Assembly (NCBI RefSeq): GCF_025602895.1
Contig: NW_026516231.1
Span: 487,426 to 551,425 of the forward strand
Length of the DNA stretch: 64,000 nt
From: Polychytrium aggregatum
Taxonomy: Eukaryota; Chytridiomycota; Chytridiomycetes; Polychytriales
Direction of reading: 5' to 3'
The first letter of the stretch is position 1, and each line of letters opens with the position of its first letter. Shown in pieces: positions 55,288 to 64,000 of this stretch. The translations under genes were made by a program, and so were the position numbers. Below the pieces are notes generated by a model that was given only the letters and a program-made list of their open reading frames with translations, did no database searches and was not told the origin of the DNA.

Positions 55288-55652
55288 TTCAATAGGTGGG
55301 TCTTTATTTAAGACTTTGCCTTAGCGTCCCTGGCGGGCTCTGGCACTGGGTGTTGGTTTGTTAGCCAACCTGATACATACTTGACCAATAAGGTCCCTTT
55401 TTAGCGACGGGGGGGGGCGAAGTGAACAGCTTTGGATACAACGGGTTGTAAACAAACGAGGGGCACATTCTCTGGATTTTTTACAGTCACAGGCTGATAG
55501 GACATACAATGGCACGTAACCATTCGGAGTGCATTCTCCAGACAGATGTCTGGACTGGGGGGACACGGACAGGGTCAGGGTTCGAACCTGAGACATCGAG
55601 GATCTTCTCCCCGAGCACACGGTCAGAACAACTGCACCAACCGGTGCCCCCC
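55288..55652 (-). mobile_element. tRNA-derived SINE-like insertion
   Basis: A 365-bp segment is flanked by perfect 14-bp direct repeats. Read on the minus strand it begins GGGGGGCACCGG and carries a pol III A-box-like sequence (TGGTGCAGTTGT) and, 51 bases later, a perfect B box (GGTTCGAACCT) inside a T-arm-like hairpin (TCAGGTTCGAACCTGA). The rest is non-tRNA sequence, and the 3' end is A-rich only in part (TTAAATAAAG). It does not fold as a complete tRNA because the 5' and expected acceptor ends do not pair. A pol III promoter, a non-coding body and a long target duplication together fit a SINE moved by LINE machinery. Whether other copies exist cannot be seen here. Confidence 0.75.
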
Positions 55653-55666
55653 GTAAACACCCTATG
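55653..55666. repeat. Target-site duplication of SINE, right copy
   Basis: GTAAACACCCTATG, identical to 55274-55287. Confidence 0.9.
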
Positions 55667-55770
55667 GTAGTACGGGGGGTTTTTCTGTTAACGATAGTTG
55701 TATATTCGAGACATTCAACCGGCCATCAGCACCTTGCGGTACTCGGCAGTGGATGTATGGTGCGTGCCAG

Positions 55771-57071
55771 TTTTTTTTTTGTTACTATAGTCAACTTTAT
55801 TCAAGAAGACAAGCCATCAGGTCCAACAGGTTGGTACCCCGGCACGTTGAGTACACAGGCAAGCCTATTTACTCCTGTTGCAGCCTAGTGCTGCCTCAGC
55901 TGCCCACAAGGTCTGAGACCAAGCGGGTGAACACATTTTCAAGCAGTTCCCACAAGGGAACAGCAGGATCGAGGGGAGGTCGGGGTGGTGGAGTGACAAG
56001 TGCTGGCACTATACTACGCTGTGATGAGGGTGCAGGGAGAGACTGCAAGGGTGGGACTACACTGGTTGTGGGAGTGGGTGCTGGTACTGGGTGTGCACCA
56101 AGTGCGAATGCTCGGAAGGCAGTGCGGGGAGCGGGTACATGAGCAGCAAGCGATCCAAGTGCGGGAGGGGTGCGAGTGCGAGGGGGAGTGCGATCGAAAG
56201 AGAGCAGGTCCAGCAGCTTGTCCACTGGTCCCACTCCGGCTATACCACTTTCCACCCAAGTCGGGTGGGCCGTCTTGAGGGCTGCGACCTTGCGGACCAG
56301 GACTTGATGCGGATCCACACATTGCTGTGCGTGGGTCCTGGTCAAGTCGATCCCGGATCCGTGTCGAGCCAGGTTCTTGCACTTGCGGTATCCAAACCTG
56401 AAGTGGCCTGGGAGAGCACCGAGTCGCCATCGGACCATGAACATGAGCATGACCATGGATCCTTGGTACCCGCGAGCCTCCCAGAGTCCCGACATCTTGG
56501 TCGACGGGGTGCAGGCGGCGGTGAGCTGCTTGGAGCGGTCGAAGCCGTTCTTCATGTGGTCCTCGAAGATGAGGGTCTTGATCGGGACGGGCTGGGGTCG
56601 GGGCGGTCCGGGCGGCGGCGGCTGGTGTCGGGTCTTGCCTCGGTAGATCTCCGTGGCCGTGAGGGAGTGGTCGGCCTCTTGTCGGCGGACCACCATGGCC
56701 CAGTGCGGATCGGCTCGGACTCCTTGGCCGAGGAACTGGTCGGGGTGGTACGGCGCAATGATCTTGTTGCGCAGGATCATCGACAGCATCTTGTCGCCGT
56801 CAGAGACTTGGTCGTCCCAGCGGGCCCAGTTCTGGAGGGCCAGCATCTTGACACGGACGGACATCTTGGGAAGGCCGCAGTTGAGGTGCATGGCACCGAT
56901 GGGAGTGCCGGGGCCGACGCGGAACATGGTGCGGAGGGCCGTCATCTGTGCGTCGTCGAGGCGGTCGCGCAGAGCCGGGTCCGGGATGTCCATGGCCATC
57001 CCGTATTCGAGGGTCGGCCGCACAAAGGTCTTGTAGACCTGGGTGATGGTCTTGGCCGAGACCTTGCCGAG
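55771..57071 (-). mobile_element. Non-LTR retrotransposon, 3' part (copy 1)
   Basis: The segment begins (on the plus strand) with ten T, the complement of a poly(A) tail, followed by GTTACTATAGTCAACTTTAT, and ends abruptly at 57071. It is nearly identical to 60581-61886 of the longer copy in the window. An uninterrupted reading frame (stop at 55896, open to 57023 and beyond) encodes the region after the reverse transcriptase: FVRPTLEYGM-type residues, then RTMFRVGPGTPIGAMHLN, KMLALQNWARWDDQVSDGDK, a Pro-rich stretch and a Cys/His cluster (KCKNLARHGSGIDLTRTH, then QQC). The 5' side is cut exactly where the Gypsy LTR begins, so the Gypsy element probably inserted into it. No target duplication can be tested because the other side is missing. 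Confidence 0.85.
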
Positions 57072-57376
57072 TGTTATGAACGCGGTCGCCGATCATACGA
57101 CGCGTCATTCATGACCCGCGCTGCATGGCCACTCGGGCGTGATTCATGACCGTGGGAAACATAGGTCGGAGCTCGAATATATTCTCCGCAGGGCGAGCAG
57201 GGGAGGGTGAGGCATAGACTTAAATAGAACACCCCGTCCCCTCCTGGATGAACGCTAGTGAATTATCACCTCAATAAACGATCATCACTCTCCTTGCCAG
57301 CCCCTGTTCAGCCCTGCCCCTGCTTCCTTGTTCTTGCCCTCGGTTCCTCAGTCCTGCCCCTGCCCAGTTCCTGACA
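57072..57376 (+). repeat. 5' LTR of Ty3/Gypsy element
   Basis: A 305-bp segment starts TGTTATGAACGC and ends CAGTTCCTGACA, with the usual TG...CA termini. It contains a TATA-like TTAAATAGAAC (about 57220) and a polyadenylation-type AATAAA (about 57271). The gag start codon follows only 27 bases later. I find no convincing tRNA primer-binding site next to the LTR, as in some self-priming elements. The matching 3' LTR is not in the window, so the exact right border is inferred. Confidence 0.7.
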
Positions 57377-57403
57377 TAATAATTCACTCTCTCAAACCCT
57401 GCC

Positions 57404-58366
57404 ATGGCCGACCCCAACCAGGCTCTCCTTGAGCACCTTGCCCTGCTCACAACCCAATGCCAACAGCAGCAGGAAGCAATCACCTTGCTTCAACAGCAAC
57501 TCCAGCAACAGCTCCAACAACAGGAGCAAATCCACTTGCAACAGCAACAGTTCCAGAACAATTTGCCTGTCGTTCAGCCCATCGTACAACCTATCCTGCC
57601 CCAGCCCAAGGAACCCAAGGTACCTTGCCCTGAGAAATTCTCCGGTGTCGCCCGAGAGCTCGAGAATTTCATCGCCGGTGTCAAAAATGTCATCGCCTTG
57701 CAACCTTCGCGTTTCCAAGACGAAGCCGTCAAGGTCCTCTACGTGAGCACGCTGCTCACAGGCCAGGCTCTCGCGTGGTTTCGCACGCTCCCCCATCCTC
57801 CCGCGACCCTCGAAGTACTCTGGGAGTCCCTCTCGGCCACGTTCGGAGACCCCCACGCGGTGTGGACCTCCAGAGCGCGTCTCAAGACCCTCAAGCAAGG
57901 CAGAACGTCGTGCGTCAACTACACCACCCAGTTCAAGCAACTCGCGCTCGAGTCTGGGTACAACGACGTGGCCCTTCTTCAACACTACCACGACGGCCTC
58001 AATGATGCCATCAAGGACGCCCTAGCTCAAACCTTGACCATTCCGGAGAACTTGGAGGACTTGTCACGGCTCTGTATTGGCCTCGACAAGCGCCAGTACT
58101 CCCGCAGGATGGAGAGGGAACAAGGTTCCCACGCTTTCGGCAGTTCCAGACCACCCAGCAGTACCCCGATCCCAGACTCCTCTAGCCACGAGGCTATGCA
58201 AGTGGACGCCATCCACATGTTCCCCAAGGCGCCCCTCAGCCGCGAGGAGAAGGACCGCCGCCTCACAGAGGGCCTCTGCCTGTACTGTGGGGGCCCAGGA
58301 CACATTGCAAGGACGTGCCCCAACAAGAAACAGCAGCACCCAAACTTCAAGGTCCAGGCCAAGTAA
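57404..58366 (+). CDS. gag: Gypsy Gag polyprotein
   Basis: 320 residues from the ATG at 57404. The N-terminus is a Gln-rich coiled coil (CQQQQEAITLLQQQLQQQ). The capsid-like part contains PEKFSGVARELENFIAGVKN, ALAWFRTLPHPP and the typical CVNYTTQFKQLALESGYN. A single zinc knuckle, CLYCGGPGHIARTC, lies near the C-terminus and would bind the element's RNA. The stop at 58364-58366 lies inside the loop of the frameshift hairpin. Gag assembles the virus-like particle. Open along its whole length. Confidence 0.93.
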   Translation: MADPNQALLEHLALLTTQCQQQQEAITLLQQQLQQQLQQQEQIHLQQQQFQNNLPVVQPIVQPILPQPKEPKVPCPEKFSGVARELENFIAGVKNVIALQPSRFQDEAVKVLYVSTLLTGQALAWFRTLPHPPATLEVLWESLSATFGDPHAVWTSRARLKTLKQGRTSCVNYTTQFKQLALESGYNDVALLQHYHDGLNDAIKDALAQTLTIPENLEDLSRLCIGLDKRQYSRRMEREQGSHAFGSSRPPSSTPIPDSSSHEAMQVDAIHMFPKAPLSREEKDRRLTEGLCLYCGGPGHIARTCPNKKQQHPNFKVQAK

Positions 58367-60534
58367 GGGGCCTCAGCCTGGACCGCAAATCTGGCCCAAC
58401 CCGCCGGGACACTGTTGTTTCCCACGCCCGGGTTAATAGCAGAAACTTCATTATTCCTTTGTCCATTTCCCTTCCAGACCAAAGAACGCTCCATCTTTCA
58501 GCACTCATTGATTCTGGTTCATCATGCAACTTGATTGATTCTCGCCTTGCCCGCAGTCAAGGACTCGACATCGCTGATCGCGAATCACCCTTGACCATCT
58601 TCCTTGCCGACAACAAAACCCGTTTCCAAATCGAAGAGCAAACCTCACCACTACCCGTTACCTTCGATACTCTTTCATTTTCAGAATACCTTTCCTTCAA
58701 CTTATTCAACTGCAACTCGCGCGAATTCTCCATCATCTTGGGTCTTCCTTGGCTTCAGATGCACAACCCAGTCATCGACTGGGTAGGTGGCCGCGTCTCC
58801 TGCAGCCATCCTCGTCCTGTCTCGCCCGACGCGCGTGCTTTGTTGACACCAACAGCTTCGACGCGTGTCGCCAACCAAGTTTCCCACGCTCCCCTCACGG
58901 ATCCATGGGAGCGCGACAACGACGACGAAGGTGCCACTGACCCCGTGACCGACAAGCAAGTGATTCCCGAAGCCTACCGTGACCTCGCCGAGGTTTTCTC
59001 GAAGGAAAAGGCCGAGTTACTTCCGAACCAAAGACCATACGACTGCGACATTCAGCTCAAGGACGAGAGCGTCGTGCCACCGTTCAAGCCTCTTTACAAT
59101 CTTTCCCCTGCCGAGTCGGAGGCACTCGACGCTTACATCAAAGAGATGCTCCACAAGGGGTTCATCCAACCTTCCAAGTCCCCTTGTGGAGCCCCAATCT
59201 TCTTTGTGAAGAAAAAGGACGGAGGACTCAGGCCCTGTGTCGATTACAGGGACCTTAATGAAATGACTGTCAAGAATCGCCACCCCCTCCCGCTCATCTC
59301 CGAGCTCATGGACCGACTCGGGGATGCCAGAATATTCACCAAGATCGACCTACGAGGGGCATACAACCTCGTCAGAATGAACCCCAAGGACCAGTGGAAG
59401 ACTGCGTTTAGGTCCAAGTTCGGTCACTACGAGTACTTGGTTATGCCATTCGGGCTAACCAATGCTCCAGCAGTGTTCCAACACATGATGAACGACATCT
59501 TTAGGGATGTTATCGATCGCTTCGTCGTCATTTACTTAGACGACATCCTAGTGTACTCACCAGACCCACATTCCCACACTCAGCACGTTCGCGAGGTTCT
59601 TGGTCGTCTCAGGACCAACCGTCTCTACGCCAAGCTTGAAAAATGTGTGTTCCACGTACCGAGTGTCGAGTTCCTCGGCTACGTGGTCTCGAGCGACGGC
59701 CTAGCAATGGCTCCGGACAAGGTAGAGACTATTCTTGCCTGGAGGACTCCCACGAAGGTCAAGGACGTGCAGAGCTTCCTTGGTTTCTGCAACTTCTACC
59801 GAAAGTTTATCGCCGAGTACTCTGGGATCGCAAAACCATTGTCAGATCTCACTCGGACTACTCCCACCTTCGTGTGGAACCCTGACGCGGAGCACGCGTT
59901 CAACACCCTCAAGCGGGCGGTGACCTCGGCACCGGTGCTCAAACACGTCGACCCTTGCTTGCCCTTCGTGCTTCAGACCGACGCCTCAGACTTCGCGCTC
60001 GGTGCTGTACTGTCACAGCCGGTCTCGGCCCAGGATTCGTCGGAGCTGCGCCCTGTTGCGTTTTTCTCAAAGAAACTCGACAGCGCCCAACAAAACTATA
60101 CCGTCCACGACAAGGAACTCCTTGCGATTGTGGAAGCCTTTCGATTCTGGAGGCACTACCTGGTCGGGGCCCGGGACATCCTTGTCTACTCCGACCACAA
60201 GAATCTAACTTTCTTCAGGAGTCGCCGGTTGCTCAAACAGCGACACGCCAGGTGGGCGGAAGACCTGTCGGAGTTCGATTTCAAGCTTTGTTTCACGCCT
60301 GGTCACCTGAACACGGTGGCCGACGCGCTCTCAAGGCGGAGTGACCTCGCCCCTGAAGGGGGAGATGATCACCCCAACAGACTGGAGATCACCCTCCTAC
60401 CCGACGATTGCTGGTCTCGCGCAGCTCAACAACCAGCCCCAGGACCCGAGGTTATCACCGACAATGCCAGGAAATTGGAGATCCTTCGATCCAGGCACGA
60501 CGCCCCTGCCGCCGGACATCCTGGCCAGGGTTAG
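58315..60534 (+). CDS. pol: Gypsy Pol polyprotein, truncated at the integrase
   Basis: The frame is -1 relative to gag and overlaps it by 52 bases; functional Pol would be made by frameshifting near 58345. Domains in order: aspartic protease (LSALIDSGSSCNLID), reverse transcriptase (KIDLRGAYNLVRMNPKD, PFGLTNAPAVFQHMM, catalytic YLDDILVYS), RNase H (LQTDASDFALGAVLSQP, YSDHKNLTFF, LNTVADALSRR). Then comes only the beginning of the integrase zinc-binding domain (LRSRHDAPAAGHPG), which stops at the TTAGG array; the two Cys ligands, the integrase core and the 3' LTR are missing. The remaining frame has no stop or shift, so the loss is recent. Order RT-RNase H-integrase defines Ty3/Gypsy. Confidence 0.93.
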   Translation: MPQQETAAPKLQGPGQVRGLSLDRKSGPTRRDTVVSHARVNSRNFIIPLSISLPDQRTLHLSALIDSGSSCNLIDSRLARSQGLDIADRESPLTIFLADNKTRFQIEEQTSPLPVTFDTLSFSEYLSFNLFNCNSREFSIILGLPWLQMHNPVIDWVGGRVSCSHPRPVSPDARALLTPTASTRVANQVSHAPLTDPWERDNDDEGATDPVTDKQVIPEAYRDLAEVFSKEKAELLPNQRPYDCDIQLKDESVVPPFKPLYNLSPAESEALDAYIKEMLHKGFIQPSKSPCGAPIFFVKKKDGGLRPCVDYRDLNEMTVKNRHPLPLISELMDRLGDARIFTKIDLRGAYNLVRMNPKDQWKTAFRSKFGHYEYLVMPFGLTNAPAVFQHMMNDIFRDVIDRFVVIYLDDILVYSPDPHSHTQHVREVLGRLRTNRLYAKLEKCVFHVPSVEFLGYVVSSDGLAMAPDKVETILAWRTPTKVKDVQSFLGFCNFYRKFIAEYSGIAKPLSDLTRTTPTFVWNPDAEHAFNTLKRAVTSAPVLKHVDPCLPFVLQTDASDFALGAVLSQPVSAQDSSELRPVAFFSKKLDSAQQNYTVHDKELLAIVEAFRFWRHYLVGARDILVYSDHKNLTFFRSRRLLKQRHARWAEDLSEFDFKLCFTPGHLNTVADALSRRSDLAPEGGDDHPNRLEITLLPDDCWSRAAQQPAPGPEVITDNARKLEILRSRHDAPAAGHPGQG
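58339..58384 (+). promoter_or_regulatory. -1 ribosomal frameshift signal between gag and pol
   Basis: Slippery heptamer CCCAAAC at 58339-58345 lies in the gag frame as C CCA AAC, the X XXY YYZ pattern. After a five-base spacer (TTCAA) comes a perfect 9-bp stem: GGTCCAGGC at 58351-58359 pairs with GCCTGGACC at 58376-58384 around a 16-base loop that contains the gag stop codon. Pol is in the -1 frame and opens just before, so the signal is positioned to fuse Gag and Pol. Confidence 0.85.
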
Positions 60535-60580
60535 GTTAGGTTAGGTTAGGTTAGGTTAGGTTAGGTTAGGTTAGGTTAGG
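60531..60580. repeat. (TTAGG)10 telomere-like array
   Basis: Ten perfect copies of TTAGG, preceded by CCAGGG of the broken Gypsy element and followed directly by 14 T of the second non-LTR element. The G-rich strand runs left to right, as at a right-hand chromosome end. TTAGG is the arthropod-type telomere repeat; most fungi use TTAGGG, so the assignment as telomeric in this organism is an inference. Confidence 0.8.
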
Positions 60581-63500
60581 TTTTTTTTTTTTTTGTTACT
60601 ATAGTCAACTTTATTCAAGAAGACAAGCCATCAGGTCCAACAGGTTGGTACCCCGGCACGTTGAGTACACAGGCAAGCCTATTTACTCCTGTTGCAGCCT
60701 AGTGCTGCCTCAGCTGCCCACAAGGTCTGAGACCAAGCGGGTGAACACATTTTCGAGCAGTTCCCACAAGGGAACAGCAGGATCGAGGGGGGGTCGGGGT
60801 GGAGGAATGACAAGTGCTGACACTATACTACGCTGTGATGAGGGTGCAGGGAGAGACTGCAAGGGTGGGACTACACTGGGTGTGGGAGTGGGTGGTGGTG
60901 CTGGGTGTGCACCAAGTGCGAATGCTCGGAAGGCAGTGCGGGGAGCGGGTACATGAGCAGCAAGTGATCCAAGTGCGGGAGGGGTGCGACTGCGAGGGGG
61001 AGTGCGATCGAAACTGAGCAGGTCCAGCAGCTTGTCCACTGGTCCCACTCCGGCTATACCACTTTCCACCCAAGTCGGGTGGGCCGTCTTGAGGGCTGCG
61101 ACCTTGCGGACCAGGACTTGATGCGGATCCACACACTGCTGTGCGTGGGTCCTGGTCAAGTCGATCCCGGATCCGTGTCGAGCCAGGTTCTTGCACTTGC
61201 GGTAGCCAAATCTGAAGTGGCCTGGGAGAGCACCGAGTCGCCATCGGACCATGAACATGAGCATGATCATGGATCCTTGGTACCCGCGAGCCTCCCAGAG
61301 TCCCGACATCTTGGTCGACGGGGTGCAGGCGGCGGTGAGCTGCTTGGAGCGGTCGAAGCCGTTCTTCATGTGGTCCTCGAAGATGAGGGTCTTGATCGGG
61401 ACGGGCTGGGGTCGGGGCGGTCCGGGCGGCGGCGGCTGGTGTCGGGTCTTGCCTCGGTAGATCTCCGTGGCCGTGAGGGAGTGGTCGGCCTCTTGTCGGC
61501 GGACCACCATGGCCCAGTGCGGATCGGCTCGGACTCCTTGGCCGAGGAACTGGTCGGGGTGGTAGGGCGCAATGATCTTGTTGCGCAGGATCATCGACAG
61601 CATCTTGTCGCCGTCAGAGACTTGGTCGTCCCAGCGGGCCCAGTTCTGCAGGGCCAGCATCTTGACACGGACCGACATCTTGGGAAGGCCGCAGTTGAGG
61701 TGCATGGCACCGACGGGAGTGCCGGGGCCGACGCGGAACATGGTGCGGAGGGCCGTCATCTGGGCGTCGTCGAGGCGGTCGCGCAGAGCTGGGTCGGGGA
61801 TGTCCATGGCCATCCCGTATTCGAGGGTCGGCCGCACAAAGGTCTTGTAGACCTGGGTGATGGTCTTGGCCGAGACCTTGCCGAGGGTGATGCCGAGTCC
61901 AACCACGGTGTCGGTGACCATGTGGGACCTTGCGGAGGAGCTTGTCGAACTGGAGGTCCGGGCGGAATCCGTCAATGTCGACCATGACACCGAGGTAGCG
62001 GAACTGGAGGACCTTGGGCAGCTCGGTGCCGTACAGCTTGGCGGGATGGAGCTGGTCGACGTTGCAGGCCGAGTACAGCACCTCGCACTTGGGAGGCGAG
62101 AAGCGGTACCGGTTGTCGATGCTGTGGCGTTCGCAGATATCCAGCATGGCCTGGGTGCGGCCAGCCGGACAGATGAGGACACCGTCATCGGCAAACCAGA
62201 GCGAGTTGACCCGGAGACGGTGGTGGCGACTCGAGGCAAGCACAAGTCCGTCCTCGGCTCGGAGCAGTCCAGGCAGGTCGTCAATGTGGGCACTGAACAG
62301 AAGGGGACTCAGGACCGAGCCTTGGATGAGACCCTTCTGCAGCCACACAGGCTGCGACGTGCGGCCCTTGCTGGCGACGCGGACAAGAGTGCGGTCGAAC
62401 ATGGCCCTGAGGACCCCGACGGCGACCGGACCAGCACCTCGGGTGGCGATCTTGTCCCAGAGGCGCTCCCGCCAGACAGTGTCGTAGGCGGCCTTGATGT
62501 CGAGGAAGACCAGGCTGTACTCGTCGTCGCGGATCTTGTTCATGCGGACAAGAGCGTCGAGCGAGTACACCTGGTCGAGGGTGCCTCGGTCCGGGCGGAA
62601 GCCTCCCTGGGCAATGTCCATGATGCCGATCTCGCGGGTGAGGAACGGCAGCAGGACTCGCTCGGCGATCTTGCGGAGGACCTGGGTCAACCCGATGGGC
62701 CGGTACATGGCCGGATCGAGGATCGAACCCTTGTTCTTGTAGACCGGGTGGATCAGGACAGTGTTCCACTCGGTCGGGACGACGGAGGCCTTGAGGGCGG
62801 CCAGCAGGATGGCCCGGAGCCAGGGAGCGACCACGGGAGCGACAGGGTGCAGCATCTCGGCCTTGATCTTGTCCGGGCCGGAAGACTTGCGCTTGGGGGA
62901 CTTGACGATGGCATCGGCCACCTCGTCCGACGACAATCGGGGAATGGAGCGGTCCTCGGGGAGCAGGCGCGGAACAGTGTCCAGGGGTCTTGGGCCGACG
63001 GTCCGGTCAAAGGCGGCACCGGGGTGTCCTGGGAGTGCGAGGAGACCTTGCCGTAGTGGACCACAAGTCGCTCGAGGGCCTCGTCCGAGTTGTCAAAGTG
63101 GAAGGCGTCGTCGAGCTCCTTGCGCTTCTTCATGGCGGCCAGGGACTGGCGACCTCGGAAGCGTTGAGGGAGTGCAGCTTGTTCATGGCCAGGGTCTCGG
63201 CTGCTCGGCGGGACTGGACGATGAGGTTCTTTTCTTGTTTGCGGACAGCGCGGAGTTCGGCGCGCTTGTCCTCGGCGACGCGGAGGGAGAGCCCGGGCAA
63301 CTTGAGCTGGTAGATGAGATCGCGGCGCCTCTCGCGAAGCTGCCGCATCTCGGGGATCAGGGCCGGGTCCTTCCAGACGGTCTTGATGGAAGCCTTGCCG
63401 ATGGTGGAGTCGGCAGCGGTGGTGATCAGGGCGATCATGATGGACCAGGCGCGGTCGATGCAGTCCTGGGCCGCACTCTCCGAGATCGGAATGACCGATC

Positions 63501-64000
63501 CCCTTGAGATTGGCCGGAGTGCAGCCTGGATGCGCTGCAGACCGCGTTCGCGCTCGTCCAGCAGCGCCAAGAGGTACTGGGCGCGGACGGCAGGATCCTC
63601 GAGCTGGGCGATCTTCCACTGCCATTGGTCGACCTTTGGGTAGTACTTTGGCTGTACCCGCAGAGTCGCCCAGATGGGGAAGTGGTCGGACTGGCCACGG
63701 AAGGCACCGGCAGTGTCGACCTGCAGCAGCGGGTCGTTGTTGGCCTGGCGATGCGACACAAAGATGTAGTCGATCGTTGTCCAGCTGGGACCTCCGCTGC
63801 CGGGTGTGGGTCGGGATCACAGCTGGAGGCACAACGCGGAGACCGGCGCGGGAGACAGTGTCCTCGAGGATCTTCTCCCTGCCACGGAGCGGCGTGGCAG
63901 TCCGCTCAGGGCACTGAGGTGGGCATTGAAGTCACCCACCACAATGACCTGGGCGTCGGGGAGGGCGGCCTTGGTGTGGATCGACTGGAGGGCCTCGCGA
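60581..64000 (-). mobile_element. Non-LTR retrotransposon (copy 2), continues past the window
   Basis: At least 3.42 kb on the minus strand, with the 3' poly(A) (14 T on the plus strand) against the TTAGG array. From the right edge inward are an APE-type endonuclease (VVGDFNAHLSAL near 63930, TTIDYIFVSHRQ near 63755), a linker, and a reverse transcriptase (SSGPDKIKAEMLHP, IALTQ-type block GLTQVLRKIAERVLLPF, QGGFRPDRGTLDQ, FLDIKAAYDTVWRE, GLIQGSVLSPLLFSAHIDDL, catalytic LWFADDGVLI). The same C-terminal region as copy 1 follows, to a stop at 60710. The overlap with copy 1 is nearly identical, so both moved recently. An APE endonuclease with this RT order places it among Jockey/Tad/I-type LINEs. 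The 5' end lies outside the window. Confidence 0.9.
60710..64000 (-). pseudogene. ORF2 of non-LTR element copy 2, frameshifted
   Basis: Endonuclease-reverse transcriptase frame broken by at least four single-base shifts as read: near 63795 (between THTRQRR and SWTTIDYIFVS), near 63145 (between LHSLNAS and QSLAAMKKRKELDD), near 63000 (before IPRLSSDEVADAIVKSPK) and near 61927 (between FDKLLRK and HMVTDTVVGLGI). Catalytic motifs of both enzymes are intact in their separate frames. Either this copy is dead or the assembly carries indel errors; copy 1, which covers only the C-terminal part, has no shift there. Confidence 0.75.

Follow-up and report, generated by a model that had tools for sequence, protein, structure and literature searches.

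The terminal layers of contig C212

The window analysed here is a whole stretch of 64,000 nucleotides of Polychytrium aggregatum DNA, corresponding to bases 487,426-551,425 of contig C212, and the assembly scanned around it comprises 64.7 Mb in 418 contigs. The last base of the window is also the last base of the contig (551,425 bases). The first-pass annotation had asked whether the scaffold stops soon after 64 kb, and it does so exactly at position 64000. Towards this end the window contains the following features, in which a slash, here and below, marks a junction between adjoining sequences:

55680..55770, minus strand: putative 3' fragment of LINE family B (91 bases, read by eye), with its T-run meeting host DNA at GGGGGG/TTTTT
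55771..57071, minus strand: inner LINE A copy, with poly(T) at 55771-55780 followed by 1.3 kb of 3' end
57072..60529, plus strand: Gypsy element within the inner LINE A copy, broken on its outer side (Pfam; comparison with other copies)
57404-58366: gag of the Gypsy element
58315-60534: pol frame of the Gypsy element, with Pfam matches to protease, RT and RNase H
60530..60580, plus strand: G followed by ten TTAGG units running 5' to 3' toward the contig end, read as a healed telomere
60581..60594, minus strand: T14, the complement of a LINE poly(A), adjoining the TTAGG tract
60595..64000, minus strand: outer LINE A copy, leaving the contig at its end (99.85% identity to the C40 copy over 3.4 kb)

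The family B fragment is cut at GCCAG on the side opposite its T-run. The inner LINE A copy is 98.1% identical to the outer one and gives way at 57072 to the LTR-like start TGTTATGAACG. From 60595 onward the complement of the outer LINE 3' end reads GTTACTATAGTC..., and this copy, which has frame breaks, keeps its 3'UTR and the greater part of ORF2 (a partial APE endonuclease and RT). Just inward of the terminal LINE chain, a tRNA-Gln was predicted by ARAGORN on the minus strand (55567-55655), within a stretch of ~365 bases with a copy of GTAAACACCCTATG at either side (55274 and 55653); the stretch resembles a SINE derived from a tRNA, with a target-site duplication of 14 bases.

The Gypsy Pol frame terminates in ..RHDAPAAGHPGQG, which by eye looks like the start of the HHCC zinc motif of an integrase; no Pfam match falls on this end of the frame. 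Three Gypsy copies of identical sequence, compared around the break point (C386, C365 and C223), continue CCTGGCCAGG-CGAGAACC, whereas the window reads CCTGGCCAGG-GTTAGGTTAGG, that is CCAGG-GTTAGG in place of CCAGG-CGAGAACC. Since these three copies run past this point, the window element was cut after ~60529. The (TTAGG)10 tract that follows (60531-60580) is perfect, eight overlapping 15-mers being matched against none in 100 shuffles. The succession claimed by the first-pass annotation, from Gypsy Pol to ten perfect TTAGG units to the poly(T) of a LINE 3'-end complement, is thus present in the letters themselves, and its proposal that a break in the Gypsy element was healed by a telomere and then extended by a LINE gains support from the break seen against the three continuing copies.

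The coding capacity of LINE A is best appreciated in the C40 copy, where both frames are open and encode 761 and 1224 aa, the outer window copy having frame breaks. ORF1 gave no Pfam match at E 0.01. ORF2 carries APE endonuclease domains at its N-terminus (PF03372 and PF14529, Pfam) and an RVT_1 reverse transcriptase; it also contains the motifs SFN, QET, GDFN and SDH, which we take to be those of an APE endonuclease. Compared with solved structures, ORF2 comes nearest to an entry named RNA-directed DNA polymerase (8c8j) and to L1 ORF2p (E ~2e-16), followed by R2. A search of 5.8 billion proteins with ORF2 yielded 7,987 scored candidates, among which 12 distant relatives passed, at 22-29% identity. 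The terminal region of C20 also contains, at ~20.98-24.97 kb, stretches of what appears to be a third, diverged LINE family, mostly with 72-77% identity to LINE A (higher for short ones).

Telomere repeat, telomerase and the orientation of LINE copies

Thirteen TTAGG units in a row have 158 overlapping matches genome-wide, and the reversed pattern has none. The 100 matches listed lie on C39, C40, C112, C204 and C239, none farther than 350 bases from a tip and all in telomere polarity; the tip of C112, read directly, bears the TTAGG repeat. Four TTAGGG units in a row are absent from the whole assembly. On this sequence evidence, TTAGG can be considered the telomere repeat of P. aggregatum. In extracts of a study of another chytrid, Batrachochytrium, TTAGGG is reported and was the sole repeat screened (PMC11797018). 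The first-pass annotation had proposed to weigh TTAGG against TTAGGG at scaffold ends and against internal arrays: in favour of its reading, TTAGG was found at the tips listed and four TTAGGG units in a row nowhere; against it, a few TTAGG arrays are internal. Among the first 100 matches to four TTAGG units, arrays away from contig ends occur at C24:99375 and C20:91023. The former consists of four units ~99 kb inside a contig of 1.04 Mb, in degenerate G-rich surroundings, and does not adjoin any LINE A copy.

Three pieces of the TERT RNA-binding domain (PF12009) lie within 0.6 kb on C408, and this predicted domain indicates that the genome encodes a telomerase. A telomerase RNA template was sought with the seed TCAGGGTTAGGTTAG, and among the 94 matches no template gene was recognised; these matches are mostly starts of arrays and a tandem repeat of ~2.0-2.3 kb without Rfam match. 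This tandem repeat, with TCAGGGTTAGGTTAGGTTAG and a (GTATCA)n run, extends through C131 and over the final 12 kb of C101. Further matches of the seed lie on C182, C193, C206 and C374, and those on any one contig share a single orientation.

On broken ends, the onset of TTAGG needs at most a short seed (ATCAGG/TTAGG, ATTGG/TTAGG, CCAGG/GTTAGG). The repeat was found added on a break inside known sequence, as expected of de novo telomere addition, at the Gypsy junction CCAGG/GTTAGG and at two LINE ends. At the LINE truncation points 252 and 6340, the TTAGG tract opens with (T)CAGGG, which is absent from the LINE there, and TCAGGG is found within tip arrays too; a telomerase template containing CCCTGA would explain both the (T)CAGGG starts and the TCAGGG in the tips. 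Extracts of work on Pyricularia describe telomere healing on seeds of 1-4 nucleotides (PMC7367193).

LINE A copies were counted by an exact 22-base piece of the 3' end, which leaves diverged copies outside the count; 146 were found, of which 114 were listed. On the 26 contigs of at least 100 kb, 50 of the 53 listed copies are oriented with their 5' side outward, facing the nearer end, and all 50 lie within 40 kb of it; 48 of the 53 are within 30 kb of the end that they face (~4.5% expected). Counted by distinct junction on these contigs, 42 of 45 point outward, on 28 contig ends. Small contigs agree, LINE A being in a single orientation on 26 of 27. This orientation speaks in favour of the first-pass annotation. 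An LTR family served as control (100 of its 687 places were listed, 55 of them on contigs of known length), with 11 outward and 14 inward among the 25 places within 40 kb of an end. Family B, recognised by GATAGTTGTATATTC, which the window fragment shares with 34 places in the genome, lies less than 40 kb from an end and points towards it in 13 of 17 cases on contigs of known length of at least 100 kb. A simple healed end beside an unrelated LINE was considered as a candidate for the window and ruled out, the LINE A family being systematically terminal.

Three of the 53 copies are exceptions: C68:854262 has diverged in sequence, C28:132336 points inward close to a tip, and C112:710323 is mid-contig. 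The last is a solitary piece of LINE, 255 bases long and 100% identical, on a contig measuring 1.46 Mb; examined as an ordinary insertion, it displayed no target-site duplication. Its inner flank, CCTGGTTAGG, reads by eye like a Gypsy integrase in reverse, and the locus is possibly a former chromosome end captured internally.

Inner and outer junctions of LINE A

On the inner (3') side, the 114 listed copies out of 146 abut TTAGG in 29 cases, the interior of an older LINE in 34 and other DNA in 51, the latter being divided into the 5' region of the LINE itself (6), ORF1/ORF2-like sequence (9), Gypsy Pol-like sequence (3) and a remainder of 33. Many copies are duplicates, as only 72 distinct junctions occur among the 114. 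All 29 junctions with the telomere repeat read TTAGG/T. The first-pass annotation had asked how often LINE 3' junctions touch TTAGG, and among the listed copies only a quarter do. LINE additions thus rest for the most part not on TTAGG but immediately on older, truncated LINEs or on other sequence, which goes beyond what that annotation had envisaged. The TTAGG runs adjoining poly(T) comprise 3-11 perfect units, in nine kinds, some being backed by more telomere-like units. Arrays at the tips are longer than these runs, a hint that worn telomeres could be the substrate of the LINE. At C183:8757, (TAGG)5 stands in place of TTAGG, between the 5' end of one LINE and the poly(T) of the next.

A single base characterises these junctions. 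Where one LINE has been joined to another, the base missing after the break is T at 23 of 24 distinct junctions (18% expected, binomial p ~1e-16), and the same holds for seven of eight further junctions with a known continuing copy: two of two on Gypsy, four of four on LINE relatives and, on two junctions with unassigned DNA, T at C235:508263 and not T at C39:28883. Outside LINEs, few cases (two on Gypsy and two on unassigned DNA) stand behind what would be the same rule. Of the 24 LINE-on-LINE junctions, 11 have GG just before the break (17.5% expected, p ~0.001; 12 of 26 including the TAGG tract). The telomeric junction TTAGG/T fits the rule followed by LINE-on-LINE junctions, and the feature common to LINE A targets, absent from the earlier annotation, thus appears to be a 3'-terminal T and not the telomere repeat itself.

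Outer (5') ends were traced outward from the 3' end of each copy in 55 segments, 26 of which ran off the available DNA; the sample consists of long stretches picked from TTAGG matches and of 30 shorter ones taken from the top of the LINE list; ends were classed by eye. The 20 distinct LINE 5' ends that were reached lead into a LINE or TTAGG in 12 cases, LTR-like DNA in 5 and other DNA in 3, at these positions of the element:

Into the next LINE A: 54, 201, 2166, 2769, 3685
Into LINE B: 159, 1197
Into TTAGG: 48, 252, 2780, 2932, 6340
Into LTR-like DNA: 960, 1154, 1310, 1467, 2176
Into other DNA: 255, 452, 1431

Leaving aside the three in other DNA, the outer neighbour is the next element or a telomere in 12 cases and LTR-like DNA in 5, in keeping with a terminally attached LINE. 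In the LTR-like cases the LINE resumes beyond the insertion with an overlap of 5 bases in two and of 24 bases in one. No continuation of the target past the LINE was recognised among the 20 ends, three of which, those in other DNA, are ambiguous. A wider, hand-sorted table (LINE A 28, LINE B 2, telomeric 7, LTR-like 5, other 3) is unusable as a proportion because DNA taken around LINE 3' ends favours LINE neighbours. On C207 (4225-26216), LINEs form a tandem array in which spacings of ~2.81 kb alternate with others of ~2.96 kb, as do two types of junction, a pattern that rolling or D-loop amplification would produce; some arrays, this one above all, were probably copied by recombination.

Chromosome ends probably built by a LINE beside telomerase

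We consider it probable that these chromosome ends are layered by two enzymes, end-primed retrotransposition of LINEs onto T-ending 3' ends alternating with telomerase. The primer would be the 3' end of the chromosome, either eroded TTAGG or bare broken DNA. The poly(A) tail of the LINE would pair with the terminal T, often in a GGT context as in TTAGGT, and reverse transcriptase would extend it. The resulting cDNA would become the new chromosome tip and, falling short or eroding, would leave an end to be either capped with TTAGG by telomerase, the presumed maker of the repeat, or lengthened by another LINE. In the window, the events would have occurred in the order LINE B, LINE A, Gypsy insertion, Gypsy break, addition of ten TTAGG units and, finally, LINE A. 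A stronger version, which we advance tentatively, holds that the LINE recognises TTAGGT-like 3' ends and adds to worn telomeres and breaks, telomerase then healing the cDNA end, so that the LINE would act as a backup healer.

The rule of the terminal T is also compatible with an endonuclease cutting GGT^N near the end and with template jumping between LINE RNAs. An endonuclease recruited by telomere proteins to nick the G-rich strand at GGT^N near any end, with loss of the distal fragment, would account for the preference for T and GG and would agree with the presumed APE motifs of ORF2. It demands that the distal piece be lost every time, and a retained distal target was recognised at none of the 20 outer ends, three of which are ambiguous; we regard terminal priming as the better reading and such a nick as rather unlikely. 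The APE-type endonuclease of ORF2 would also suit a LINE of the TRAS/SART kind, cutting inside TTAGG and entering the array through conventional target-primed reverse transcription, as would the invariable TTAGG/T register (29 of 29, with no flanking TTAGG array in another register) and the copies flanked by TTAGG on both sides (the tip of C39, and C38). As the sole mechanism, this view is difficult to reconcile with the 85 of 114 listed copies not classed as on TTAGG, with the 7 of 20 distinct outer ends that run straight into the poly(T) of another LINE, and with a T rule operating in the absence of TTAGG at LINE-on-LINE junctions, and it seems to us quite improbable.

Head-to-tail chains could also stem mostly from template jumping or recombination instead of repeated additions at ends, as suggested by the regular spacings and alternating junction types of C207 and by a one-base T overlap compatible with a jump of the reverse transcriptase onto a poly(A) tail. 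Truncation points mostly differ between copies, however, and jumping between LINE RNAs offers no explanation for the T rule in both Gypsy cases and in one of the two unassigned cases, which makes this origin unlikely for most chains. Finally, contigs break in repeats and short contigs are rich in LINEs (61 of the 114 listed copies), such that the gathering of repeats at contig ends through false joins had to be considered. Breakage in repeats gives no bias of orientation, as illustrated by the LTR family (11 versus 14), whereas 50 of 53 LINE copies face outward and the one-base rule is obeyed at 23 of 24 junctions; an artefact of assembly is very improbable for the family as a whole, while the window junction itself could still be a misjoin.

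Comparable systems are known, one of them in Drosophila. HeT-A, TART and TAHRE resemble the P. aggregatum LINE in 5' truncation and polarity, and elements of the HeT-A/TART kind have a reverse transcriptase of the Jockey clade. As extracts of the literature describe them, they form head-to-tail arrays at chromosome ends in an insect without telomerase. TART and TAHRE have an APE endonuclease and are thought to join the chromosome end without nicking (PMC5537684). In both organisms LINEs build chromosome ends; telomerase is replaced in Drosophila, whereas P. aggregatum possesses a predicted TERT domain and TTAGG tips. The insect elements TRAS and SART have reverse transcriptases of the R1 clade, and the polarity of TRAS is that of the P. 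aggregatum LINE. According to the parts of the sources at hand, TRAS and SART are APE-type LINEs at telomeres (PMC5537684), and the telomere repeat of insects is TTAGG (PMC10100673). They differ from LINE A by an insertion guided by the endonuclease within the repeat, 85 of the 114 listed LINE A copies being off TTAGG. Zepp, a LINE of the green alga Chlorella, is known for its nested build-up. It resides at telomeres (extracts of PMC10088271). GilM and GilT of Giardia are described in extracts as head-to-tail, unidirectional and 5'-truncated, between subtelomere and telomere repeats (PMC5537684), and by that description alone they are like LINE A in array layout, direction and 5' truncation. 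Penelope-like Athena elements, with no endonuclease or with GIY-YIG and a TERT-like reverse transcriptase, are not matched by LINE A, which combines RVT_1 with an APE endonuclease.

Among fungi, MoTeR, FoTeR and Cnl1 are telomeric LINEs, as LINE A would be. Extracts on MoTeR mention truncated copies, short interstitial telomeres and repair by healing and recombination (PMC7367193; PMC12857005), and those of the FoTeR analysis place fungal telomeric LINEs with SLACS and CRE, with an REL endonuclease, the 3' ends of FoTeR carrying telomere repeats (PMC12857005). To the extent of these extracts, LINE A differs by its APE endonuclease (PF03372/PF14529) and its mostly direct junctions, and its 3' end lies on telomere repeats in only 29 of 114 listed copies, unlike that of CRE-clade elements. 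The literature searched, from which subscription papers were largely outside, yielded fungal telomeric LINEs of the CRE/REL type only and none of the APE type, in keeping with the remark of the first-pass annotation that an APE-type LINE at a fungal telomere would be unusual; it held no paper naming P. aggregatum together with telomeres. Insects, Giardia, Chlorella and several fungi are thus known to carry telomeric LINEs, and what would be new, against the literature searched, is an APE-type case in a fungus.

The one-base junction rule allows end priming and endonuclease cutting to be tested directly against each other. If true, the layering proposed here would bring telomerase and chromosome-end building in the style of Drosophila together in a single nucleus, and this in a fungus of an early-branching lineage. 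Were the LINE also to act as a backup healer, two reverse transcriptases would maintain the chromosome ends of a chytrid at once.
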